The notes below the pieces were generated by a model. That model was not told the origin of the DNA, ran no database searches, and worked only from the letters and a program-made list of their open reading frames with translations. 64,000 nt of DNA, taken from Luteibacter flocculans (GTDB lineage Bacteria; Pseudomonadota; Gammaproteobacteria; Xanthomonadales; Rhodanobacteraceae). Of this stretch, positions 3,679-31,668 are shown in pieces. Both the position numbers and the translations under genes were made by a program. The stretch is from positions 1,222,001-1,286,000 of the forward strand of contig NZ_CP063231.1 of assembly GCF_023612255.1 (NCBI RefSeq), read 5' to 3'. Each line of letters opens with the position of its first letter. The stretch's first letter is position 1.

Positions 3679-5544
3679 GTGAGCCAGGAAACCCGAAAGT
3701 TCGAAGCCGAGGTCGCCCAGGTCCTGCACCTGGTGACCCATTCCCTCTACTCGCACAAGGAAATCTTCCTCCGCGAGCTCATTTCCAACGCCTCCGACGC
3801 CTGCGACAAGCTGCGTTTCGAAGCGCTGGCCGACCCCAGCCTCACCGACGGCGATGCCGATCTGCGCATCCAAGTGAGCTGGGATCCGGAGGCGCGTACG
3901 ATCAGCGTTCGCGACAACGGCATCGGCATGAGCCGCGACGAGGTCGTGGCCAACATCGGTACCATCGCCAGCTCCGGCACTCGCCGCTATCTGGAAGCGC
4001 TTTCGGGCGAACAGAAGGCGGATGCACGCCTGATCGGCCAGTTCGGCGTGGGCTTCTATTCCGCCTTCGTCGTGGCAGACAAGGTCACGGTCATCACCCG
4101 CCGCGCCGGCCAGCCCGCCACTGCGGGCGTGCGCTGGGAAAGCGACGGCAAGGGTGAGTACTCCCTCGAAGACACCAACGTCACCGAGCGCGGCACGACC
4201 GTGGTGTTGCACCTCAAGGCGGACGAGGACGAGTTCCTCAAGGCGTGGGCGCTGCGCAGCGCCATCACGAAGTACTCCGACCACGTGGCGTTCCCCATCC
4301 GCATGCCGGCCGAGAAGGACGGCAAGCCCGATCCGACCGAATGGACCACGATCAACTCCGCTTCGGCGCTGTGGTCGCGGCCGAAGAGCGAGATCACCGA
4401 CGAGGAATACCAGAACTTCTACAAGGCGCTGGGCCACGACTTCAACGATGCGCTCGCCTGGACGCACAACCGCGTCGAAGGCAGCCAAAGCTTCACGACG
4501 CTGCTCTACGTGCCGTCGCAACCGCCGTTCGATCTGATGATGGGCGGCCGCGACGAGCGGAAGGGACTGAAGCTCTACATCAAGCGCGTCTTCATCATGG
4601 ACGCCGCGGAAGAACTGCTGCCTAACTACCTGCGCTTCGTGCGCGGCGTGGTCGACGCCGACGACCTGCCGCTCAACGTCAGCCGCGAAATTCTGCAGCA
4701 GAATCGCCAGCTCGAGCAGATCAAGGCGCGCTGCGTGAAGGGCGTGCTGGATCTGCTGGAACGCGTTGCGCGCGACGAGCCCGAAAAGTTCGCCACCTTC
4801 CTGGCGGGTTTCGGCAATACGTTGAAGGAAGGCATCGTCGAAGACACCGCCAACCGCGAGCGCATCGCCAAGCTGCTGCGCTTTGCCTCCACCAAGGGCG
4901 ATGGCGCCAACAAGACCGTGTCCTTCGACGACTACATCGGCCGTATGGCCGTGGGTCAGGACACGATCTGGTACGTCACCGCGGACAGCTACGCTGCGGC
5001 CGCGGGCAGCCCGCAGCTCGAAGCGTTGAAGGCGAAGGACATCGAGGTGCTGCTGATGTCCGACCGCGTCGACGAATGGATGCTCGGCTATCTCACCGAG
5101 TACGGTGGCAAGCGCCTGCGTAACGTCGCCAAGGGTGAGTTCCCGCTCGACGAGGCGGACAAGGCGAAGCAGGAAGCCGCGACGGCCGCCGCGGCGCCGC
5201 TGCTGGAACGGACCAAGAGCCTGCTCGGCGACCGCGTGAGCGACGTGCGGGTATCGGCGCGACTGACCGATTCCCCGTCGTGCCTTGCGCTGGCGGACTT
5301 CGACCTTGCACCGCATCTCGCCCGCCTGCTGCGCGAGGCGGGACAGGACGTGCCGGACAGCAAGCCGGTGCTTGAGTTGAATCCTGAGCACGCGTTGGTC
5401 AAGCGGCTGGCCGCCGAGACCGATGACGCGAAGGCGAGCGATCTTGCTGGCCTGCTGCTGGAACAGGCGGAGATCACGGCGGGTGCGCAGTTGCCCGACC
5501 CGGCCGCCTTCGTGCAGCGCATGAACCGCGTGCTGCTGGGCTGA
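3679..5544 (+). CDS. htpG: Molecular chaperone HtpG (Hsp90)
   Basis: A 621-residue bacterial Hsp90, which binds and remodels client proteins with ATP in the cytoplasm. The start is GTG at 3679, 8 bp after a GAAGGA ribosome binding site. The GHKL ATPase motifs are clear: LISNASDACDKLRFEAL, DNGIGMSRDEV, and the lid GQFGVGFYSAFVVAD. The middle-domain segment LPLNVSREILQQNR, which supplies the arginine contacting ATP, is also present. Length is normal. A strong stem-loop follows the stop codon, so this gene is probably the last of its transcript. Confidence 0.97.
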   Translation: MSQETRKFEAEVAQVLHLVTHSLYSHKEIFLRELISNASDACDKLRFEALADPSLTDGDADLRIQVSWDPEARTISVRDNGIGMSRDEVVANIGTIASSGTRRYLEALSGEQKADARLIGQFGVGFYSAFVVADKVTVITRRAGQPATAGVRWESDGKGEYSLEDTNVTERGTTVVLHLKADEDEFLKAWALRSAITKYSDHVAFPIRMPAEKDGKPDPTEWTTINSASALWSRPKSEITDEEYQNFYKALGHDFNDALAWTHNRVEGSQSFTTLLYVPSQPPFDLMMGGRDERKGLKLYIKRVFIMDAAEELLPNYLRFVRGVVDADDLPLNVSREILQQNRQLEQIKARCVKGVLDLLERVARDEPEKFATFLAGFGNTLKEGIVEDTANRERIAKLLRFASTKGDGANKTVSFDDYIGRMAVGQDTIWYVTADSYAAAAGSPQLEALKAKDIEVLLMSDRVDEWMLGYLTEYGGKRLRNVAKGEFPLDEADKAKQEAATAAAAPLLERTKSLLGDRVSDVRVSARLTDSPSCLALADFDLAPHLARLLREAGQDVPDSKPVLELNPEHALVKRLAAETDDAKASDLAGLLLEQAEITAGAQLPDPAAFVQRMNRVLLG

Positions 5545-5556
5545 TCCTCCCGCGCC

Positions 5557-5596
5557 AAGCCGCGCGCGATGAGTCGGTCATCGCGCGCGGGCTTCT
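5557..5596 (+). terminator. Intrinsic terminator-like hairpin after htpG
   Basis: A 13-bp perfect stem, CCGCGCGCGATGA (5560-5572) with TCATCGCGCGCGG (5578-5590), has a 5-nt loop and begins 15 bp after the htpG stop. AAGC and GCTT flank it and can extend the stem. The following CTTCTTC is only weakly T-rich. Confidence 0.7.
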
Positions 5597-5669
5597 TCGA
5601 GGCCTCATGGCGAGGTCATGAGCGCCAGCCACGCTGACGCGGGTACGGGCTCTGCTATCGTTCCGCGTC

Positions 5670-6575
5670 ATGTCCGCACTGCTCATTCTTTTCGTCTGTC
5701 TCGCCCTCGGCATCCTTTCCCGTCGCTACGCGTCGCTGCCCGAGGGCATCGTTCCCGGCATCAACTGGTGGGTGCTGAACATCGCGCTTCCCGCGCTGGT
5801 GCTGGCACTCGTGCCACACGTGACGGTGGATGCGCGGCTATGGTTTCCCGTCGCGGCGATGCATCTGACGTTCTTCGGCGCCTGGGCTCTGTTCGCCACG
5901 CTCGGGCAATGGCTGGGCTGGTCGCGTCATCGAGTGGGCTGCCTCACCCTGGTCTGCGGGCTGGGTAATACCTCGTTCATCGGTTACCCCATGATGGAGG
6001 CCTTGCACGGTAAGCCGGGCTTGTCGCTCGCCGTCATCGCCGATCAGTTGGGTTGCTTCCCGCTGCTCGCCGCGGCCGGGATCGTGGTGGCGTCGATGTA
6101 CTCGGGCAGGAGCGCCAACGCCGCCACCATTGCGCGTCGCGTGCTCACGTTCCCGGCTTTTCTCGCGCTGCTTGCTGGCGCGATGGTCGGACTGTTTGGC
6201 GGATGGCCAGAGTCGGTGGAGAAAGTGCTGATGCAGATCGGCCAGACGCTGACGCCACTCGCGTTGTTTTCGGTGGGCCTGCAGTTCCGCCTGCATCTGC
6301 GGCGGGAGCAAGTCGGTGCGCTCGCCGCGGGCCTGGGTTGGAAGCTGCTGCTCGCGCCGCTGGCGGTGCTCGGTCTGGGACTGGCGGCGGGCGTGGGCGG
6401 TCTGCCGTTGACGGTCGGCGTGCTGCAGGCGGCGATGGCGCCGATGATCTCGGCGGCGATCCTTGCCGATCAGTACGGCCTTGAACCACGCCTGGCAAAC
6501 ACCGTGCTCGGCGCCGGCATCCTGGTCTCGCTCGTGACGATTCCCGTGGGCAACCTGTTCCTGCCGGCGGGCTGA
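5670..6575 (+). CDS. AEC family permease (auxin efflux carrier type)
   Basis: A 301-residue polytopic inner membrane protein made of two repeats of hydrophobic segments, characteristic of the AEC/membrane transport family PF03547. Visible signatures are the N-terminal LLILFVCLALGILSRR and the central GNTSFIGYPMMEALHG, which matches the conserved G-N-x-x-F-x-G-x-P region of the family. The C-terminal half repeats the pattern in LQAAMAPMISAAILADQY. Family members export or import small organic acids such as malate or malonate; the substrate here cannot be read from sequence. It stands alone between htpG and hslR with no partner gene. Confidence 0.82.
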   Translation: MSALLILFVCLALGILSRRYASLPEGIVPGINWWVLNIALPALVLALVPHVTVDARLWFPVAAMHLTFFGAWALFATLGQWLGWSRHRVGCLTLVCGLGNTSFIGYPMMEALHGKPGLSLAVIADQLGCFPLLAAAGIVVASMYSGRSANAATIARRVLTFPAFLALLAGAMVGLFGGWPESVEKVLMQIGQTLTPLALFSVGLQFRLHLRREQVGALAAGLGWKLLLAPLAVLGLGLAAGVGGLPLTVGVLQAAMAPMISAAILADQYGLEPRLANTVLGAGILVSLVTIPVGNLFLPAG

Positions 6576-19096: not shown

Positions 19097-19420
19097 TTAG
19101 TGGTAGCTGGGAACGAACTCAGGCTGGCCAGCTGCCGAGTCCCAACCGCCGGGCCTCTGACCCGCCGGACATACGGTCGCGTATTGCTCAAACGATGCGA
19201 CGTCGTCGGCCGACCATGGCTTGCCGTAGGGGTTCGGTTCGCAGGCAGGATTTACCATGTAGGTGGTACCAAGATACGGCGGCATTGGCCACCAGCACCG
19301 ACTGGGGTCGTCCCGCCCCTTGGTACAGAACAGGAAGGGGTCGCCTTGACGATAAGTCAGTACCTGCGCCTGCGAGGCGAAGCCGAAAAGCATGAGTGCG
19401 ATGAATAATCCGATTTTCAT
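19097..19420 (-). CDS. Small exported Cys-containing protein of unknown function
   Basis: 107 residues with a strong AGGAAGG ribosome binding site, which supports it as a real gene. A signal peptide (MKIGLFIALMLFGFASQAQ) leaves a mature protein of about 88 residues with four Cys and many Trp, Pro and Tyr (RCWWPMPPYLG, NPYGKPWSADD, VCPAGQRPGGW). No family was recognised. It lies between the lipase effector and virD4, on the same strand as both, so it could be a lipase immunity protein or a T4SS accessory factor. It is not the lipoprotein VirB7, which is found elsewhere. Function is not assigned. Confidence 0.65.
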   Translation of the reverse strand: MKIGLFIALMLFGFASQAQVLTYRQGDPFLFCTKGRDDPSRCWWPMPPYLGTTYMVNPACEPNPYGKPWSADDVASFEQYATVCPAGQRPGGWDSAAGQPEFVPSYH

Positions 19421-22833: not shown

Positions 22834-23412
22834 TCAGAGCGAATCGTCTTTCACGCGATACAGGTGCCAGCAATCGTCCTTCCGGAAGAAGAACGTCATC
22901 TGGTAATCGGTATCCGGTTTGACCAGCTTCACGGCGATATCGGTAGCGCTGGTGTCGGTGCGCTTGGCCGTCAGGCCATCCTTTGCCTGATCGGCCTGGC
23001 TCGGCATGATCGGGAAGGTGACCTGGTCCTTGGGCAGCGACTTCGAAACAGGCTTCGGTTCCGGATCGGCGTTGGGATCGACCGAATCGCTCTGCAGGGG
23101 ATCGGTCACATAGGTCTTCTGCACGCTGACGTCGTTTTCGAAGAGCGGCAGGAACTGGTCGAAGCTCGCCGCCGGGCAGGTCGTCGCGCTCGCTGCTGCG
23201 GTGGATGGCGCAGCAGCGGTGCTTACATCGGCGGCGGTGGCTGTCGTTGCCGGGGACGGAGCCTGCGGAGGCGGCGGAGACGACGGGCCGCAAGCCGCCA
23301 GAAGCGCGGCAGCCAGGATGCATATTGCGCTTCGCGCAGCAGTACGCAGCGCGCGAGCAGGCGGGAGTCCGTGAAACTCGTGGATGGCGTGAATCATGCG
23401 GTTCTCCATCAT
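22834..23412 (-). CDS. Lipoprotein, candidate immunity protein of the T4SS cassette
   Basis: 192 residues. The N-terminus contains a lipobox LLAAC with Cys41, followed by a Pro/Ser/Ala/Thr-rich linker of about 35 residues. The folded part begins ATTCPAASFDQFLPLFEND and ends MTFFFRKDDCWHLYRVKDDSL, containing two Cys likely to form a disulfide. A membrane-anchored periplasmic inhibitor would suit a cassette of wall hydrolases. The ATG overlaps the GH19 effector stop by 4 bp, and the M23 effector starts 16 bp after its stop, so it could protect against either. An ATG 3 bp downstream is an equally possible start. Confidence 0.72.
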   Translation of the reverse strand: MMENRMIHAIHEFHGLPPARALRTAARSAICILAAALLAACGPSSPPPPQAPSPATTATAADVSTAAAPSTAAASATTCPAASFDQFLPLFENDVSVQKTYVTDPLQSDSVDPNADPEPKPVSKSLPKDQVTFPIMPSQADQAKDGLTAKRTDTSATDIAVKLVKPDTDYQMTFFFRKDDCWHLYRVKDDSL

Positions 23413-24677
23413 GGCGCTCCCATTCCCGGATGCGTGGGAGCGTTGGTCTGCTGCTGAGGCGCTGGCGCGGTCGCTTGTTCCGGCCGAGCCTGGGGCAGGG
23501 CGGATGCGCTCTGGTCCACGGGCGTGTTGACCGCCTGCGCTGTCTGTACGTCGGCAACGCGCTTGTGCGGCGACTGCGTATCGCCGGCCACGGCGTACAC
23601 ACGGCTGGCGTCGTCGCTCAACACCACGCGGTCGATGGACGTCATGCCTTCCTTCTTGGCCGCCACGGTAAGCGCCGCGGCGAGGTTCTCGCTCTGCTGG
23701 TCCGGCGTGCGATGGTGCTCCGCGTCGAGCTTGTGCACGGCGGCCCGTGCCTGCTCGAACAAGGCATGGTCCGGATGCGACGGGTCGTCGAGGCGAACGA
23801 CAGGCTGCCGGGTCGCCGCGTCGAGTGCGGCACGTGTCTTCGGTCCGGCCACGCCGTCAGCCGCCAGATGATGATCGCGCTGGAATGCTTCGAGCGCAGC
23901 CTGAGTGCCGGGACCGAACTTGCCGTCCACCTGCAAAGGCTGGCGATGCGCGTCGGTGTAACCAAGCCCCGCGAGGCTGGCCTGGAGTGTACGTACCTCG
24001 TCGCCGTGGGCGCCGGTGCGCAGGGTCGAGCCGTGGTCGGCGTGGTGCGCAGGCGCGGAGTGCGCGGGCAGCGAAGCGGCGCCGTGCTCGAGACGCTGCA
24101 TCACCTCGGGCGTGAGCCGTCTCTCCCAGTCGTGGAAACGCGTTTGCCGATCTTCCAGGCCGTTGTACTTGCCGTTGACGGCGTGCGTCGCCGCCCGCAC
24201 GTCTTCGCGCGCCTGCTCCGGCACGCGGTTCTCCCAGTACCACACCGCAATGCGCGAAGCATTCTGCGGGTCCGCTGCGAGTTCCGGGTGCTTGACCAGA
24301 TCGAGGTCCAGTGCCTCGCCAGCGGCGCGGTAGTTGTCCTTGCCGGTGAGCTGGATGTAGCCACGACCATGGTATCGCCAGCCGTCACCGGGGGCGTCGT
24401 TGCCGTTGCGGCCGCCATACATCAGTTCGGCAAGGCGTTCGGGGCGCCCGTGCAAGGCCTGCAGACGGGCGGATTCCAGGGCTTCGGGGCCTTCGCGCCA
24501 AGCCGACTGGACGGGAATCTGCGAAATATTCCGCGTGTAGCGGAAGCTTTCCTCCAGCCGGTTCAGGCCGTTGGATTCATGAGTGACCTGGGCCATGAAA
24601 TTGGCCAGCTCCCTCGGGGACCGGATCCCAGCCGCATAGGCTTCGGTCAGGACCTGCGTTTCACGATCAATCGCCAT
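23409..24677 (-). CDS. X-T4SS effector: GH19 lysozyme/chitinase-like domain, peptidoglycan-binding domain, XVIPCD
   Basis: 422 residues with an AGGAG site 7 bp upstream. The GH19 domain covers about residues 1-195: Glu34 in QVTHESNGLNR, acidic LEESFRY, and GDGWRYHGRGYIQLTGKDNY. A PG_binding_1 unit is at about 225-290 (VRTLQASLAGLGYTD, AALEAFQRDHH, DGVAGPKT). The XVIPCD at about 298-422 has HPDHALFEQARAAVHKLD and MTSIDRVVLSDDASRVYAVAGD, followed by a Pro/Gln-rich tail. It is a paralogue of the GH19 effector at 15523-16764 but differs substantially in the catalytic domain. It is first in the run of coupled effector and immunity genes. Confidence 0.9.
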   Translation of the reverse strand: MAIDRETQVLTEAYAAGIRSPRELANFMAQVTHESNGLNRLEESFRYTRNISQIPVQSAWREGPEALESARLQALHGRPERLAELMYGGRNGNDAPGDGWRYHGRGYIQLTGKDNYRAAGEALDLDLVKHPELAADPQNASRIAVWYWENRVPEQAREDVRAATHAVNGKYNGLEDRQTRFHDWERRLTPEVMQRLEHGAASLPAHSAPAHHADHGSTLRTGAHGDEVRTLQASLAGLGYTDAHRQPLQVDGKFGPGTQAALEAFQRDHHLAADGVAGPKTRAALDAATRQPVVRLDDPSHPDHALFEQARAAVHKLDAEHHRTPDQQSENLAAALTVAAKKEGMTSIDRVVLSDDASRVYAVAGDTQSPHKRVADVQTAQAVNTPVDQSASALPQARPEQATAPAPQQQTNAPTHPGMGAP

Positions 24678-24766: not shown

Positions 24767-25414
24767 TCAGGGCAACGTCACCTCCGGCAGGGTGGAAGGA
24801 TCGAAATCGGAAAAGGTCACGGAGCCGAGTTCCTTCGGGGTCAGCTCGGACGACTTGTACTTCCCGGTGATCGTGTCGTCCACGCGGCGTACCACGCGGG
24901 TCACGAACCAGTTCTTCTTTTCCGGCGCATAGGTAAAGGTGTATTCGTCGGACCAGTGCTCCCGGCTGCCGCCACCGTTGACGATGGTGAAGTGCCCCGC
25001 GTCGATCTTCGTGAAGCCGTAGGGATCGCCGGCCACGCCGCCGCAGGTTGCGCACGGCACCACGTGCGAATTGGACGCTGCCTTCTGCAGCACGCCCGAG
25101 GCGTCGCGCACGAGCAACAGCACGTCGCGTCCTGGCGAATCATCCGTCTTTGCCGTCGCCGAAGAGGGCGGGTCGAGGATAAGAATGACATCGGCTCCAC
25201 CCTTGTCGGTCAGCGCGCCCTTCACCGAGTCGAGGACCTTCGCCCCACCTGTCGCGAATCGTGTCAGGTCATCCATCTTGCTTCCTTTGGTCGGTGCGGA
25301 TGCGGATACCGAGTGAGACGTGGGTGCGTACGGGTTGTTCTGCGCGTTGGCCCATGGGCTGAGAAGCAGCAGGGCGCAGGTACTCAGGGAAAGCAGGGTC
25401 GGATGTTTTGTCAT
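24767..25414 (-). CDS. Exported protein of unknown function, candidate immunity protein
   Basis: 215 residues with a signal peptide (LLSLSTCALLLLSPWANAQN). The mature protein has a CxxC pair (VPCATCGGVAGDPYGF) and beta-like segments (VILILDPPSS, DVLLLVRDASG, EYTFTYAPEKKNWFVTRVVRRVDD). The last stretch resembles many inhibitor-like periplasmic proteins that describe a dependence of wall or ion sensing, but no family was recognised. It is 89 bp upstream of the GH19 XVIPCD effector and on the same strand, so an immunity function is a reasonable guess from position only. A small terminator on the upstream side separates it from the DUF4189 genes. Confidence 0.68.
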   Translation of the reverse strand: MTKHPTLLSLSTCALLLLSPWANAQNNPYAPTSHSVSASAPTKGSKMDDLTRFATGGAKVLDSVKGALTDKGGADVILILDPPSSATAKTDDSPGRDVLLLVRDASGVLQKAASNSHVVPCATCGGVAGDPYGFTKIDAGHFTIVNGGGSREHWSDEYTFTYAPEKKNWFVTRVVRRVDDTITGKYKSSELTPKELGSVTFSDFDPSTLPEVTLP

Positions 25415-25663: not shown

Positions 25664-26203
25664 TCAACGAACCCGCTCAGGCATGCTGCAAGCCGAGTAA
25701 ACAATCTTGCATCCGGTGCCATTCTTGCGACATGCGCCGAGTGCTCCGTCCTCGGCCATTTGCAGGTTCTTATCGGTGGATGCTCCATATGAATCATCAC
25801 TCCAAGCAATGGCCGCGCACTGGTTGTAGTAGGTGAGCACAACTTTGCATCCCTGAGCCCCCCGGGCCTTGCAATCAGACATCGCATCATGAACGGCAAT
25901 CGCCTTCGTGTCCCGGTCAGCAATCGTTCCAGCGTCTCCAGCATCCTTGTCGAGCGCAATCGCTCCCCATTTGTCCTTCCAAACCGGCGCGGGCGCGACT
26001 GGTGTCGAAGCATTTGGGGCGTTGTAACCTGGCATGCCTGCAGCGTCTGGCGGAACGCAGTTTCCTCCACCTGTATTGACGCTGGTCGCACACTGGCCCC
26101 ACGCAGGAGCTGAGATAGCCCCAAGCACAAATAGCCAGGCGAACGCGTGTGCTCTTCTAGGCCGCGTCGCTTGAGCCACATTGGCTTGGTCCTCATCAAG
26201 CAT
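25664..26203 (-). CDS. Exported DUF4189 protein (second of a tandem pair)
   Basis: About 179 residues from MLDEDQANVAQA, with a twin-Arg-rich n-region and a hydrophobic core (FAWLFVLGAISAPAWGQ). The mature part begins CATSVNTGGGNCVPPDA, then has KWGAIALDKDAG, CKARGAQGCKVVLTYYNQCAAIAWSDDSYG and GCKIVYSACSM. The W-G-A-I-A and Y-x-N-Q-C-A-A features and six to eight Cys define DUF4189. It starts 5 bp after the stop of its paralogue. An in-frame ATG at 26278 would overlap the paralogue by 70 bp and was rejected. By eye, GC content is lower than in the virB genes. Confidence 0.75.
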   Translation of the reverse strand: MLDEDQANVAQATRPRRAHAFAWLFVLGAISAPAWGQCATSVNTGGGNCVPPDAAGMPGYNAPNASTPVAPAPVWKDKWGAIALDKDAGDAGTIADRDTKAIAVHDAMSDCKARGAQGCKVVLTYYNQCAAIAWSDDSYGASTDKNLQMAEDGALGACRKNGTGCKIVYSACSMPERVR

Positions 26204-26208
26204 GCGTA

Positions 26209-26712
26209 TTATCGAACGCGTTGAGGCTGTACACATGCGGTGTAAACCGTTTTGCATCCCGTTCCGCCGGTCGAGCACGATTCGACGGCAGCCTGGGATG
26301 CGCCTTGCAGCGATGGGTCATGAGCGATGCCATATGATTCATCGCCCCACGCAACGGCCGCACATTGATTGTGGTACGTCAGCTTCACCTCACAGTTTCG
26401 CGCTCCAGTTGCGCGGCATTCGTCCATGGCGATTCGAATGGCTGCGGCCTTGCTTGTTTGGTCCGTGGCAGTGCCTTTCGCGCCACCCTTCGCGTCCAGC
26501 ACGATCGCACCCCACATGTCCTGCCACACGGGAGGGGGCGCGGCCGGTGCGTATCCGCCTGGTGGAACATTACCTGGCATACCCTGAGCGTCTGGCGGCA
26601 CGCAGTTGCCACCTCCCGTGTTCACGCCAGTGGCACACTGGGCGAATACGGCCGAAGTATGAAAGCAAAGCAAGGCTAGAGTGATTGAGGTTTTGCTGAA
26701 GATTCTCCTCAT
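26209..26712 (-). CDS. Exported DUF4189 protein coupled to virB6 (first of a tandem pair)
   Basis: 167 residues with a signal peptide (SITLALLCFHTSAVFAQ), an AGGAG site, and an ATG that overlaps the virB6 stop by 4 bp. Mature landmarks are CATGVNTGGGNCVPPDAQGMPG, MWGAIVLDAKGG, CRATGARNCEVKLTYHNQCAAVAWGDESYG and GCKTVYTAC. It shares most of these with the following gene, so the two are recent duplicates. DUF4189 has no established function. Being in the virB operon suggests a periplasmic role linked to secretion, such as an accessory or immunity protein. Confidence 0.8.
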   Translation of the reverse strand: MRRIFSKTSITLALLCFHTSAVFAQCATGVNTGGGNCVPPDAQGMPGNVPPGGYAPAAPPPVWQDMWGAIVLDAKGGAKGTATDQTSKAAAIRIAMDECRATGARNCEVKLTYHNQCAAVAWGDESYGIAHDPSLQGASQAAVESCSTGGTGCKTVYTACVQPQRVR

Positions 26713-27875
26713 GCTTGCTCACTCCTACGGATCTCATCGGGTGTTGCTTTATACCCGGAAGATGAAGTAGCCAACGCACCCGTATGCGCAAACGGGTTCG
26801 ACGATTGTCCCGTCGAGCCCACCTGTTGCCCTCTGCTCGGATCGCTGGATGGCGGCAGATAGGTCGGCGAACCCGGCGGACCATAGCCGCCACCGCGGCT
26901 ACCCGGCGGCTCAGGCTTGATATGTCCAAACGGCGAGTACGAGTTGAACTGGCCGAGCGTGCCCTGGAAGAAGGAGGCGGCCATGGGCGGGGCGCTGATG
27001 ATCATGGTGGTGAGCAGCAGGCCGAGACCACCCTGCTGAAGTGCCATGCTGTTGATACCGTCGGTGCTGCCCGCGCCACCCAATTCCGGCATGGATAGCA
27101 GGTACTTCACGGCAAAGGAGGCGGTGACGGCCGCCATCATCTTCATCGCGATGGTCACCATGACGCTCAGTACCGCCAGCGAAAACACCGTGCCGATGCC
27201 ATAGAGAAGCCACTTGCTGAATAGTTGCTTCGTGGGCTCGAACAGCAAACACATGATGAAGATCGGGCCGAAGCCCACGAAGAGGGCAAGGGCGATCTTA
27301 TTGAGCAAAAGCATGGAGCCGGCGATGACGCTCGGTCCCGCGATGCCTATACCGGTGAACCAGCGATCGCGGTCCTTCGCATCCTGAGCAGCCTGGTCGC
27401 CGCCCGTGTCGATGGCGTCGATGGTGCCCATCGCCACTTCCATGCCCGCGAGATTGTTGTCGATGTGCTGGAAGGGACTGCCGCTCTCTCCCGTGACGTA
27501 CTGAGCGATCGTCGTCGACATGCCGTCGCTCAACGTCCAGTACACGGAAGACGACGAATAAGCGGCCGTCGTGGCGATGAAGACCACGAGGGTTGCTTTC
27601 AGCGAATCGCCGACGAGAACCATCATCGGCTGTCGCGACTGCCCGGTGACGATGCGGAATCCCTGGAACATGATCCACACGGTCAGCACCGAGACGGCGA
27701 CGAAGCCGATGATCGTTGCCGAGCTCGACAGCAGCTTCCACTGCATGATGTCGATTTCAGTGCGCAGGAAGTCGTTGATCGTCTGAAAGAAGACGAAGTT
27801 CGTCGCCGTGTCGAGCGGCCCTGCAAGCATGGCAAGCGCCGAGTGACCAGCGAGCATACCGGTGATGTCAACCAT
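26709..27875 (-). CDS. virB6: T4SS inner membrane protein VirB6
   Basis: 388 residues with several hydrophobic segments (for example LLSSSATIIGFVAVSVLTVWIMFQGF, SVIAGSMLLLNKIALALFVGFGPIFIMCLLF and LLYGIGTVFSLAVLSVMVTIAMKMMAAV). This is the TrbL/VirB6 layout, including the conserved FVGFGPIFIMCLLFEPTKQLFSKWL region. The C-terminal 80 residues are Pro/Gly/Ser-rich (PGSRGGGYGPPGSPTYLPP). VirB6 forms the inner membrane base of the channel with VirB8. It lies 38 bp after virB5, and its stop overlaps the first DUF4189 gene. Confidence 0.9.
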   Translation of the reverse strand: MVDITGMLAGHSALAMLAGPLDTATNFVFFQTINDFLRTEIDIMQWKLLSSSATIIGFVAVSVLTVWIMFQGFRIVTGQSRQPMMVLVGDSLKATLVVFIATTAAYSSSSVYWTLSDGMSTTIAQYVTGESGSPFQHIDNNLAGMEVAMGTIDAIDTGGDQAAQDAKDRDRWFTGIGIAGPSVIAGSMLLLNKIALALFVGFGPIFIMCLLFEPTKQLFSKWLLYGIGTVFSLAVLSVMVTIAMKMMAAVTASFAVKYLLSMPELGGAGSTDGINSMALQQGGLGLLLTTMIISAPPMAASFFQGTLGQFNSYSPFGHIKPEPPGSRGGGYGPPGSPTYLPPSSDPSRGQQVGSTGQSSNPFAHTGALATSSSGYKATPDEIRRSEQA

Positions 27876-27913: not shown

Positions 27914-28792
27914 TCAGAAGCCATTGGAGTCACCGATGCTCAGGGTCTGCATGCCAGAGGGCTTGGCGCTTTGCACGCCATCCAGCGACGCCTTCAGCGC
28001 AGCGCCCGTAGCCAGGCCACTGATCGCGCTGCCGATGTTGACGTCTCCGATGCCGGGCAGGGAGATCGAACCCCAATCCGAAGGCTGCTTACCCGTGCTT
28101 GCCGCGTTTGCAGCGATGGTCTGCTTGGCGCGCAGGAAGCGCAGGTTGGCCTCGTAGGCGTAGTTCACGGTCTGCATCTGCTGCTGGTCGAGCGCGATCA
28201 GGTTGTAGAGCGCGGTGAGCTTGTTGGTGTTGTCTTCGAGCTTGCCGAACTGGTTGGCATCGCTTGCCTGGATGGCTGCCCGCTCCTTGAGCAGCTCGCG
28301 CAACATGGCGTCACGCGTTGCGGTGTTCTTGTACATCGTCAGCATGTACTGGTACTGAGCGTTCTCGATGTCGACGATCTGCTGGCACGTCGCCTGCTGC
28401 GGTTGAGCGACGGCCTTGCAGCGCGTGCCGTCGTCAAGCTTGGTCGTGTCCTCCGGCAGGGTCTGCGTGGGGTCCTTCACGCGAGCGCCCGGCTGCTTCT
28501 CGTCGTACGTTCCGATTTTCAGCTTCTCGTTGATGGCATTGATGTTGCCATTCACCGTGGAACCATCGCCCAGCGTCTTGCCGAGCACCGAGTTGATGTC
28601 CGTCGTCTGAGTGACGGTGTCGTTGGTGTGTGTCTCGATCTGCTTAAGCGTGGCGTTGGCGTTGGCGTCATTCACCGCCCACTGCGCATGGGCAGCGGGG
28701 GCGGCCAGCGACAGCGCCAAGGCGAAGGCGGCTGCGCCGAGCAGGCGGTGAAGGAGGGCGTTTTGCCGACGGAGGGTCGAGGGAAGGGTCAT
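27914..28792 (-). CDS. virB5: T4SS minor pilin VirB5
   Basis: About 292 residues from MTLPSTLRRQNALLHR, with a GGAG site 8 bp upstream. A TTG 21 bp earlier is in frame but less likely. The signal peptide (LLGAAAFALALSLAAPAAHAQ) is followed by a mature, strongly helical protein with the VirB5 pattern of a glutamine- and alanine-rich coil (QIVDIENAQYQYMLTMYKN, ALYNLIALDQQQMQTVNYAYEANLRFLRA). VirB5 is expected at the pilus tip. It is located between virB4 and virB6, as in X. citri, although sequence conservation in this family is low. Confidence 0.85.
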   Translation of the reverse strand: MTLPSTLRRQNALLHRLLGAAAFALALSLAAPAAHAQWAVNDANANATLKQIETHTNDTVTQTTDINSVLGKTLGDGSTVNGNINAINEKLKIGTYDEKQPGARVKDPTQTLPEDTTKLDDGTRCKAVAQPQQATCQQIVDIENAQYQYMLTMYKNTATRDAMLRELLKERAAIQASDANQFGKLEDNTNKLTALYNLIALDQQQMQTVNYAYEANLRFLRAKQTIAANAASTGKQPSDWGSISLPGIGDVNIGSAISGLATGAALKASLDGVQSAKPSGMQTLSIGDSNGF

Positions 28793-28825
28793 GGTTGGGT
28801 TCTCCAAGGTCAATGCGTGCCTGGG

Positions 28826-31294
28826 TCAGCGGGCCGCCGAGCGGGCAGGACGCGTCGAGGGGGAGGCGGGCGACGGCTTCTTGCCGCTGCCCTTTCGGTG
28901 TTCGTAGAAGGAGGGAAGCCACTGGTCCGGCGTGAGTTCGTCTGCCGGAACGCCCAGGTCCTCCGCTTGTCGCGCAAGGACCTCGTGCATGATCTCGATG
29001 TTGTCCGTGGACGCGGAGATCACCGCCAATGCGTCATCCATGCCACGCAGATTCAACTGGCACACTGCAGAGGCGTGCCCCTGTTTGACCAGGAAGCGGC
29101 GAGAGCGCTCGTCGAGACTCACCACCACCTGGTACTCCGCGTCGGTCAGCTTGAGGCCGTTGACGTAGTCCTCGCGGCTGGCGTTCGGATTGGGTAGCAG
29201 GATCATCGTGGCGGTCTGCTCGATGAGTGCCGCGGAGATGTCGCTGGCCAGCGCATCCTCGGGGCTTTGCGTGGCAAAGATGCCCATGCCGTTCTGCTTA
29301 CGAATGGTCTTCTGCTTGTTCTTGGCAAATTCCTTGAGACCGCCCTTGCCGTCCAGGATCTTCCAGAACTCGTCCATGACGTAGATGAGGCGGCGGCCAT
29401 CGATCAGGGCTTCGAGGCGGTGCAGCAGATAGTTGATGACCGGCGCGCGGACTTCAGGGTTGTCGATGATCTCGGTGTAATCGAAGCCGATGATATTGGC
29501 GCGGGAGAGGTCGACCGTATCCTTCGGATTGTCGAAGACCCAGCCAAGCGAGTTGCCCGCAGTCCACTTGCGCATGCGAATGAAGAGGCCGTCGTCGCCG
29601 AGATTCGGCAAGCTCTTCTGGAAGTTCGTCATGTTCCGAAGATGCATGGGGGTGTCGAGGATCGCCTCGACGGCCCGGTAGATGTCTTCTTCCTCACGGG
29701 AGCTGTAGACGCTCTTGCCGGCCAGCACCTTGATGAGATCAGCCAGGAACTGGACGTTCTCCTCCGTGCGCTCGCACTGGAACGGATTGAAGCCGGTGGG
29801 CTTGCCGTTTTCCAGGGCGAGATAGTTGCCACCGCAGGCGCGAACGAAGATCTCGGCGCCGCGATCCTTGTCGAAGAAGAAGATCGTGGGCGCCGGGTCG
29901 AGCTTCTGCACCTGGCTCAACAGGAAGTTGATGAGTGCCGTCTTACCGGTACCGGATTTGCCGATGACCATGGTATTGGCGATGGCCTTTTCACCGAACG
30001 AGTTCTCGGCCGGATGCGTGGCGTGGAAGTTGAAGTAGTACGGCTGGCCGTTGGTCGTCTGCAGTGTCGTGACGCAGTCGCCCCAGGGGTTGTTCTGCTT
30101 CTTGCCCGTGGCGAAGTTGTGCAGTGGCGACAGGCCGAGGAAGTTGAGCGAGCTGACATTTGCCAGACGAGTGCGGTATTTCCAGTTGCCTGGGAACTGC
30201 GCATAGAAGGCCGAAGTCACCGCCAGGTCTTCCTTCACCGACACGAACCCTGCATTGGACAGCTCGGCACGCGTGGCGGCGATCTGCTGCGACAGAGCTT
30301 CCTGTGCGGTCGAGTAAACGGCCATGGTGAAATGGTACTCGCCAAGCACGAAGTTGCCCGACGCGAGCTGGTCCATCGCCTGGTCCATTTCGATGATCTG
30401 GCTGACGGCCTTGTCGCCGGAGGAGATCATCATGCCCTTGGTGCGCTCCAGGGCCTTGAGCGCATCCTGGCGGCCCATGGGGCTGAAGGAGTGGGTGATG
30501 ACGTATTCGAAATCGAGGTACTTGAGCCCGTTGAGGATGCCCGGATAGGTCCCCTCGACGTACTCCTTGATATTCAGGATGGCGCCGAAATGGTTGACGC
30601 CGTTAGGGGTCGTCAGCACGAAGTCGCCCGTCTTCGACGAAAACCGTTGCCGGCTGACCGGCAGGTAGTCCTTCACTGGGGCGGAAAGCACCGGCACTGG
30701 CTCATCGAGGCGATTCAGGATGTACCCGTAAAGTTCGAGCACTTCGGAGAAAACGACCCCGTTGGGTGCTTCATACATGCCCATGCGCGTGGGCGCATAG
30801 TCCTTGAGTACGGCCTCCACGTTGCCGGCCAGTTCCAGGATCGTGGCGATCGCTTGCGCTTGCTCGGCCTGAAGCCGTTCGACGTTCGACGATTTCTCGA
30901 CGAAACGTTTTCCCGAGACGACAGGGCGATAGATCATCGTCAGGTAAAGCTCGTTCTGCATGAGCTTCTGACTCGAAAGCGAGTCGTAATAACCGTCCGA
31001 GAGCGCCTGATTGAAGCTATGTTCGAACTTGCTCTTGTCCTTGATGCTGCGGCGGCGACGGATATCGTGCACCCAGAACGCCACGTTTACGAAGTCGGGC
31101 GCTCGCAGCGTCTGCAGCATGCGATTGAACGTGTTATGGCGGTGCTCGATTTCCCACTCCTCCCTGCCTACGAACGGCAGGCCACCGAGGCGCCACACCA
31201 GCAGGAAATCGCCCCCCGTCGTCTTGAGGACGGTCGGCGAGACGTGGGTCGAGAATGGAATGAATTCGCCGATCGCTGCATCAGGAATGAACAT
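28826..31294 (-). CDS. virB4: T4SS ATPase VirB4
   Basis: 822 residues from MFIPDAAIGEFIPFSTHVS. Upstream in-frame codons exist back to 31411, but they overlap virB3 and look non-coding. The C-terminal ATPase has Walker A MVIGKSGTGKTALINFL at about residues 445-452 and Walker B RLIYVMDEFWKIL. The QNGMGIFATQSPEDALAS segment is typical of VirB4/TrwK. VirB4 powers pilus biogenesis and substrate transfer at the inner membrane. The last 25 residues are Ser/Pro/Lys-rich. It is followed by virB5 after 33 bp. Confidence 0.95.
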   Translation of the reverse strand: MFIPDAAIGEFIPFSTHVSPTVLKTTGGDFLLVWRLGGLPFVGREEWEIEHRHNTFNRMLQTLRAPDFVNVAFWVHDIRRRRSIKDKSKFEHSFNQALSDGYYDSLSSQKLMQNELYLTMIYRPVVSGKRFVEKSSNVERLQAEQAQAIATILELAGNVEAVLKDYAPTRMGMYEAPNGVVFSEVLELYGYILNRLDEPVPVLSAPVKDYLPVSRQRFSSKTGDFVLTTPNGVNHFGAILNIKEYVEGTYPGILNGLKYLDFEYVITHSFSPMGRQDALKALERTKGMMISSGDKAVSQIIEMDQAMDQLASGNFVLGEYHFTMAVYSTAQEALSQQIAATRAELSNAGFVSVKEDLAVTSAFYAQFPGNWKYRTRLANVSSLNFLGLSPLHNFATGKKQNNPWGDCVTTLQTTNGQPYYFNFHATHPAENSFGEKAIANTMVIGKSGTGKTALINFLLSQVQKLDPAPTIFFFDKDRGAEIFVRACGGNYLALENGKPTGFNPFQCERTEENVQFLADLIKVLAGKSVYSSREEEDIYRAVEAILDTPMHLRNMTNFQKSLPNLGDDGLFIRMRKWTAGNSLGWVFDNPKDTVDLSRANIIGFDYTEIIDNPEVRAPVINYLLHRLEALIDGRRLIYVMDEFWKILDGKGGLKEFAKNKQKTIRKQNGMGIFATQSPEDALASDISAALIEQTATMILLPNPNASREDYVNGLKLTDAEYQVVVSLDERSRRFLVKQGHASAVCQLNLRGMDDALAVISASTDNIEIMHEVLARQAEDLGVPADELTPDQWLPSFYEHRKGSGKKPSPASPSTRPARSAAR

Positions 31295-31359
31295 GGCTCT
31301 GCCTACCGTCAAACGCACTGGAAAGGCCCTGGCAGAAATCTGCCAGGGCGGGAGTCGCC

Positions 31360-31668
31360 TTATCGCTTCGCCTTGCCTGGCTCGCGATAAGTGTTGGGCG
31401 TGAAGACCCACATGCCGTCGTGCTCGGCCAGATTCTTCACTCGGGTCCTGAACTGAAGCCGCAAGCCAAGCAGGCGGAAGATCAGCTCATCGCGGCGTGC
31501 CATCTGGCGCATCACGAAGATCGAGCAAGGAATCCAGAGGAGCCACCACATGTTGAAGTACATCGCCATCAGCAAACCGCTGCCCGCCCCAAGAAAGAAG
31601 GGCACATAGGGCACGCCCATGAACATGGGTGGGCGCGTGCAGCCGCGGAAGAGCGCGTTCTTATGCAT
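31360..31668 (-). CDS. virB3: T4SS membrane protein VirB3
   Basis: 102 residues from MHKNALFRGCTRPPMFMGVP. This N-terminus, with TRPPMF.GVP followed by a double hydrophobic stretch (FFLGAGSGLLMAMYFNMWWLLWIPCSIFVM), is characteristic of VirB3. The start overlaps the end of virB2 by 8 bp, which supports it over longer in-frame openings. VirB3 works with VirB4 and VirB6 in the inner membrane. Confidence 0.9.
   Translation of the reverse strand: MHKNALFRGCTRPPMFMGVPYVPFFLGAGSGLLMAMYFNMWWLLWIPCSIFVMRQMARRDELIFRLLGLRLQFRTRVKNLAEHDGMWVFTPNTYREPGKAKR

Follow-up and report, generated by a model that had tools for sequence, protein, structure and literature searches.

The 64,000-nucleotide stretch of Luteibacter flocculans DNA analyzed here (contig NZ_CP063231.1, positions 1,222,001 to 1,286,000; hereafter the window) carries the virB operon of an X-type, bactericidal type IV secretion system (X-T4SS) on its minus strand. 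The subject of this text is a pair of adjacent genes behind virB6 that encode secreted, cysteine-rich proteins of the DUF4189 family. Read along the minus strand, in window coordinates, the genes are virB4 (28826-31411), which serves as the conserved yardstick of the operon (78-82% identity in Xanthomonas); a gene at the position of virB5 (27914-28813), assigned by that position to the pilus tip or stalk; virB6 (26709-27875; PF04610, E=8.5e-28), encoding the TrbL/VirB6-type inner-membrane stalk subunit; DUF4189-A (26209-26712); DUF4189-B (25664-26203); a secreted immunity-like protein (24767-25414), recognized by similarity search and reading of sequences; and an X-T4SS effector (X-Tfe; 23409-24677) of the GH19 type with peptidoglycan (PG)-binding and XVIPCD domains (PF00182, PF01471, PF20410). 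The assignment as X-T4SS is based on XVIPCD effectors together with VirB/VirD4 genes, where virB6 and the effector at 23409-24677 are identified by Pfam and the other vir genes by open reading frame (ORF) and position. The Luteibacter genome has eight XVIPCD matches, at least four of them inside the window.

DUF4189-A, the first or resident copy, is a protein of 167 residues with nine cysteines and a signal-like N-terminus (PF13827, E=8.3e-19). Its ATG overlaps the virB6 TGA by 4 bp, and a ribosome-binding-type AGGAG, read from the sequence, lies within the coding end of virB6 (26722-26726). DUF4189-B, also with a signal-like N-terminus (PF13827, E=4.4e-21), follows after a gap of 5 bp and has 179 residues when counted from an internal ATG, which is preferred over the GTG start of the mechanical ORF at 26278; no clear Shine-Dalgarno sequence of its own is seen in the start region. 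The two proteins score 75.7 and 68.4 bits against a curated cut-off of 25, contain 8-9 cysteines, and share ~57% identity over the aligned part. The 4.3-Mb genome has no other DUF4189 gene. Sequence and Pfam thus confirm the arrangement of overlap, AGGAG, and short gap that an earlier note on this DNA had described for two secreted, Cys-rich DUF4189 proteins. Signal peptides and membrane topology, here and below, are judged from hydropathy only.

The same note took a lower guanine-plus-cytosine (GC) content as a sign that the DUF4189 genes were acquired later. Their GC, 0.58-0.59, is indeed below the window mean of 0.637, but the operon genes are equally low (virB6 0.602, virB4 0.601, virD4 0.582, virB9 0.572), and GC is therefore no evidence of later acquisition.

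DUF4189 next to virB6 across genomes

In a draw of 197 genomes of the family, with XVIPCD as the tag for X-T4SS effectors, DUF4189 occurs in 54, XVIPCD in 60, and both in 51 (Fisher p=5.5e-34, a nominal value, the genomes being related). Among the DUF4189 matches listed, 126 of 150 lie downstream of a TrbL/VirB6 match on the same strand. At each of the 60 VirB6 genes in this draw, 429-894 bp separate the end of the TrbL domain from the first DUF4189 copy, which has the same orientation. A scan of named genomes that started from VirB6 finds DUF4189 as the next gene in 65 of 74 evaluable loci of Luteibacter, Dyella, Frateuria, Rhodanobacter, Xanthomonas, Pseudoxanthomonas, Stenotrophomonas, Lysobacter, Variovorax, and Rhodoferax. 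These counts answer the earlier note's question of whether DUF4189 follows virB6 in other X-T4SS loci, and since it does so in almost all of them, the link to this secretion system is real. The overlap with virB6 is 4 bp or 1 bp in 24 of 58 first copies, and a signal-like start is present in 110 of 113 first copies and 106 of 116 later ones.

A phylum-wide draw of 397 Pseudomonadota genomes includes 50 with DUF4189, of which 48 were checked (the window's own genome and G005 were left out). XVIPCD is present in five, and in all five DUF4189 lies directly after virB6. The other 43, which lack XVIPCD, have DUF4189 as a secreted protein away from virB6, with one possible exception (G215, 4 kb from a TrbL match). 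The concern that DUF4189 belongs mainly outside T4SS loci fails among X-T4SS carriers; in Pseudomonadota at large, DUF4189 is also a general secreted domain of genomes that have no X-T4SS. Those 43 genomes are what could be said for a coincidental passenger of the operon, a secreted protein of generic kind that illegitimate recombination has duplicated and that plays no part in T4SS biology. Such an account is very improbable, given a position conserved in about ten named genera and, as described below, the occurrence of the same alleles as the resident copy of one species and as a displaced copy of a second.

Some loci depart from this arrangement. Three related X-T4SS loci (L092, L093, L094) have a secreted Cys protein of 108-112 residues at the DUF4189 position, followed directly by virD4; one Lysobacter locus has a different small secreted protein in its place, and some loci have nothing there. 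Small secreted proteins of one family, which share a ‘DPF/NPFLFC’-type motif, recur beside lipase-type X-Tfes and include a window member on the minus strand (19097-19420), without a Pfam match, as well as members in L081 and L089 (~0.6 kb after virB6) and in L180, where the gene directly follows virB6 and takes the place of DUF4189. L082 is an X-T4SS-like locus that has DUF4189 and a VirB6 almost without tail; its genome gives no PF20410 match, and the effector-like ORF next in line resembles a DUF2235-type phospholipase. In L096 (about 3681-6190, minus strand), a stand-alone truncated DUF4189 lies beside a lipase XVIPCD effector in a genome with no detected TrbL/VirB6. No PADLOC or NCBIfam model matches the virB6-linked proteins, a phage search gave no DUF4189 match, and a plasmid search found matches on seven plasmids; these matches cover about 60% of the protein at less than 60% identity.

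Polymorphism and displacement of the virB6 end with DUF4189

Within X-T4SS loci, the median difference is 14.5% for VirB4, 67% for the first DUF4189, and 78% for the VirB6 tail, a Pro/Gly/Ser-rich C-terminal segment of ~80 residues (residues ~305-388 in the window, encoded at 26709-26963). The tail was delimited by column identity, which is 0.10-0.37 there vs 0.3-0.7 in the VirB6 core. The hypervariability of the tail and of the virB6-proximal DUF4189 persists where VirB4 is 97-99% identical. In the pairs with near-identical VirB4, the nonsynonymous divergence (dN) is 0.15-0.72 for the first DUF4189 and 0.19-0.86 for the tail, whereas VirB4 has 0.006-0.056 and the VirB6 core 0.011-0.067. Because the pairwise ratio to synonymous divergence (dN/dS) is below 1 where dS is unsaturated, the diversity looks like the exchange of old alleles rather than fast point change.

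Pfam finds no domain besides TrbL in VirB6, and no toxin domain in the part encoded by the variable 3' end. A motif, [DEN]-x-[VIML]-[KR], is located near the C-terminal end of 45 of 64 tails vs 1.1 in shuffled tails, so the tail is not junk; the window tail has D-x-[VIM]-[KR] close to its end. The motif is also present in L095, a locus without DUF4189.

DUF4189 genes form arrays of up to 11 copies, and truncated 3' ends of virB6 are found between the copies. In the combined set, a VirB6-tail remnant stands immediately upstream of 41 of 116 later copies. The second copy of Xanthomonas arboricola pv. juglandis (L159) is among the clearest cases: relative to the resident pair of Xanthomonas prunicola (L161), its tail is 100% identical over 77 residues and its DUF4189 96%, while against the resident pair of its own locus the values are 37% and 42%. 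Similar matches for tail and DUF4189, respectively, are found between L154 copy 2 and the resident pair of L156/L158 (90-91% and 96-98%), L202 copy 4 and L208 (95.5% and 97%), L204 copy 3 and L210 (62% and 94%), and L035 copy 2 and L039 (84% and 81%). For 36 testable later copies, with self excluded and candidates limited to loci whose VirB6 core is at least 70% identical, the best tail match and the best DUF4189 match fall in the same locus in 14 cases vs 3.3 expected (p<=2e-4). With the core threshold at 80% the coincidence is 10 of 26 vs 4.8 expected (p=0.01); both p-values are approximate, as the shuffle ignores kinship among candidate loci. The tail and DUF4189 are shown to be displaced as a linked unit.

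New alleles enter at the virB6 side, since in L038/L047 and in L053/L059/L067 the distal copies are conserved (70-97%) and the virB6-proximal copies differ. Several tandem virB6-DUF4189 copies are seen in Xanthomonas loci L152, L157/L165, L161, L162, and L166. A larger displaced block, composed of the virB4 3' part, virB5, virB6, and DUF4189, is present in L152 and L157/L165; with the virB4 part and virB5 in front, the exchange boundary can therefore also fall in virB4. The later copies keep the Cys pattern, and among closely related ones dN/dS is mostly 0.04-0.2 while the virB6 parts are truncated. The later copies are shown to be intact and under purifying selection. In X. euvesicatoria 85-10, four virB6 genes are reportedly kept while virB1-B5, virB10, and virB11 are gone (PMC10432156). 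A supposed broken VirB4 beside a kept DUF4189 in Xanthomonas was dropped; the search had flagged stops, yet the ORFs are full length.

DUF4189 might alternatively serve the X-T4SS as a structural part or an assembly factor, for example as a periplasmic protein that chaperones or caps the VirB5-VirB6 stalk and evolves together with its partner. The fixed position in the virB operon and the translational coupling are consistent with this. So is the finding that DUF4189 varies in step with VirB5 and the VirB6 core at depth, with a partial rank correlation of about 0.57 once VirB4 is accounted for; the distances of VirB5 and the VirB6 core themselves correlate at 0.85. However, first copies are exchanged while those partners stay nearly the same: in L059/L053, VirB5 and the VirB6 core differ by 6% and the first DUF4189 by 61%. 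A structural part would also not need up to 11 diverged copies, nor intact ones without partner, and some X-T4SS lack DUF4189. An accessory of this kind is improbable, and the periplasmic structural component put forward in the earlier note fits poorly with the hypervariability, the long arrays, and the intact copies beside decayed virB6 remnants.

Exclusion-type protection as a candidate role

How bacteria with an X-T4SS avoid killing their sister cells is stated as unsolved in the literature (PMC10933484). Wild-type Xanthomonas citri does not kill sisters that lack nine effector/immunity pairs, which was put down to a ‘still-to-be-characterized mechanism’ (PMC10933484), and X. citri and Stenotrophomonas maltophilia kill each other (PMC6759196). 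In X. citri, virB6 is followed by xac2611, which is transcribed as part of the same polycistronic mRNA (PMC7286519) and, from the position in other Xanthomonas, is presumably a DUF4189 gene. The genes for conjugative exclusion characteristically lie beside a VirB6-family gene (virB6, trbL, or traG), and their products meet that subunit of the donor (PMC8923210, PMC12624023). Displaced pairs of a 3' end and the next gene, together with intact orphans, are a signature of immunity in Rhs and contact-dependent inhibition (CDI) systems (PMC10539506). The exclusion-gene position beside virB6, the displaced pairs and orphans, and the resistance of X. citri sisters together single out DUF4189 as the best candidate for a protector of the exclusion type.

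We give an even chance to the reading that the DUF4189 proteins behind virB6 are periplasmic protectors of self and kin in the bactericidal X-T4SS, acting like plasmid entry-exclusion proteins. From the comparisons above we infer the protection, its exclusion mechanism, and the bound molecule. The resident protein would be made together with VirB6 and then exported. When a cell is attacked by an X-T4SS that shares its allele type, this protein would prevent productive injection, with the incoming stalk or tip component (VirB6 or VirB5), or the pore that it forms, as the likely target. A new block of virB6 end and DUF4189, or of virB5, virB6, and DUF4189, would be gained by recombination in conserved virB4 or virB6 sequence. 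The old block would be pushed downstream, where its virB6 part decays and its DUF4189 is proposed to be retained because it still protects against relatives with the old type. The protector of the envelope suggested in the earlier note is favored, as a polymorphic and allele-specific one rather than a broad one.

The compared entry-exclusion systems are TraS/TraG of F, Eex/TraG of IncC and SXT/R391, ExcA/TraY of IncI, TrbK of IncP beside trbL, and Eex of IncN beside virB6. Their likeness to DUF4189 is that of a small envelope protein encoded beside a VirB6-family gene; their own feature is a specificity that comes from pairing with the VirB6-family subunit of the donor (PMC8923210, PMC12624023). 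The DUF4189 proteins give no Pfam or NCBIfam match to exclusion families (TrbK, Eex, TraS, ExcA), PF13827 being the only one found. They differ in that they are predicted to be periplasmic by signal peptide instead of lipoproteins or inner-membrane proteins, that they form arrays with displaced copies, and that they would guard against toxin injection, not DNA entry. In the C-terminal toxin-immunity (CT-I) modules of Rhs and CDI systems, a variable 3' end and the next gene are likewise exchanged as a unit through recombination in the conserved part (PMC10539506), and, as with virB6 and DUF4189, old pairs remain downstream and orphan second genes stay intact. The difference is that the variable end is on VirB6, a subunit of the machine, and not on a toxin, and that the tail is short, Pro/Gly-rich, and motif-bearing instead of an enzymatic domain.

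Several observations weigh against exclusion-type protection. The hydropathy of VirB6 suggests an N-out, C-in topology, which places the tail in the cytoplasm; a periplasmic DUF4189 would contact the tail of the donor only if that tail were threaded through or the predicted topology were incorrect, and direct binding there is therefore unlikely. Alternative partners are VirB5 or the periplasmic loops of VirB6, which are variable and co-vary with DUF4189 at depth. The linkage of tail and DUF4189 could be hitch-hiking, because the two are neighbors and recombination depends on conserved sequence in the virB6 core. The tail-DUF4189 correlation is not significant in 33 pairs with a VirB6 core of at least 90% identity (rho 0.19, p=0.29). 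Covariation in such close pairs was dropped as an argument for this reason, and the argument therefore rests on the displaced pairs and on five high-similarity pairs. DUF4189 is not next to virB6 in nine of the 74 named loci and in four fetched X-T4SS loci. Lastly, some DUF4189 domains lie beside effectors of the PG-hydrolase type as C-terminal domains of other proteins, which favors effector immunity (see below).

In a narrower version, what is recognized is the VirB6 tail itself, which would enter the target cell or be displayed there, with DUF4189 as its specific binder and VirB5 uninvolved. Tail and DUF4189 do move and get displaced together, and 45 of the 64 tails keep the C-terminal motif. 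Against this stand the predicted cytoplasmic location, the motif in a locus without DUF4189, and the fact that linkage alone would give the same pattern, and we consider this version unlikely.

Exclusion-type protection can be extended, more tentatively, to populations: a killing T4SS may carry a polymorphic exclusion locus, in which the VirB5-VirB6 block and DUF4189 set compatibility groups and the array of past partners, not effector immunity, decides which relatives kill each other. For the resistance of sister cells, DUF4189 is a concrete candidate: almost all X-T4SS operons have the gene, its product is secreted and polymorphic, and displaced copies are retained. If exclusion is the role, the arrays predict mutually tolerant strains, a process known from plasmid conjugation would be at work in a protein-injecting weapon, and DUF4189 would gain a role.

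Neighboring effectors and effector-linked DUF4189

The main rival of exclusion is effector immunity, in which DUF4189 proteins are conventional X-T4SS immunity proteins (X-Tfi) that bind and neutralize particular injected effectors, above all peptidoglycan hydrolases. The linkage to virB6 would then provide early co-expression only, and the arrays would be collections of orphan immunity genes against effectors of many kinds. Downstream, the first XVIPCD ORF is similar to the GH19 effector of the window in 28 loci (in some through the shared PG-binding part only), to a lipase in nine, and to an M23-type protein in four, with others besides. No XVIPCD ORF lies within the few kb fetched in 19 stretches, 15 of which still have DUF4189. 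The resident DUF4189 is not tied to one effector type. For the virB6-linked copies, immunity to one specific neighboring effector is disfavored, as the effector that comes first downstream differs between loci or is missing.

A different set of DUF4189 proteins is linked to effectors. In L098 (3390-4292 and 5621-6595, plus strand) and also in L100, L101, L104, L107, L108, and L109, DUF4189 is the C-terminal domain of secreted proteins of ~300 residues that adjoin PG-binding XVIPCD effectors, and the N-terminal part resembles the window protein at 24767-25414. They probably represent a fusion of two genes, which the window has as separate neighbors. Of eight effectors tested beside effector-linked DUF4189, seven have PG-binding domains, and the eighth, whose DUF4189 neighbor stands alone, is a lipase.

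Effector immunity gains from these fusions to an immunity-like N-domain next to XVIPCD effectors, from the same N-domain standing as a separate gene between DUF4189 and the GH19 effector in the window, and from arrays with intact later copies, which are typical of orphan immunity. Known X-Tfis such as XAC2610 and Smlt3025 are alike in being periplasmic and encoded in or near the X-T4SS locus, and DUF4189 is a domain of such effector-linked proteins. However, the virB6-linked DUF4189 has no dedicated effector partner; the resident copy is tied to virB6 and present with GH19-like, lipase, M23, or no nearby effectors, and the remnants that precede later copies are virB6 ends. In addition, the literature assigns XAC2610 to XAC2609 as its cognate immunity protein (PMC7286519, PMC10933484), and X-Tfis reportedly counter mainly toxin that the cell itself makes (PMC10933484). 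Effector immunity is accordingly a rather unlikely role for the virB6-linked proteins.

The fold of the family is seen in an AlphaFold2 (AF2) model of DUF4189-A built with 96 aligned copies. The core, with a predicted local distance difference test score (pLDDT) of about 98, has two lobes of strands plus a helix, and the Pro-rich N-terminal stretch has low confidence. Besides Rv1813c, no relative stands out in the fold search. The model matches Rv1813c (7NHZ) with a Z of 12.2 and 2.6 Å over 94 residues. Rv1813c has the same domain (PF13827) and fold as the window proteins but no T4SS context; it is a secreted mycobacterial protein studied as a host-mitochondrion effector (PMC10269737).
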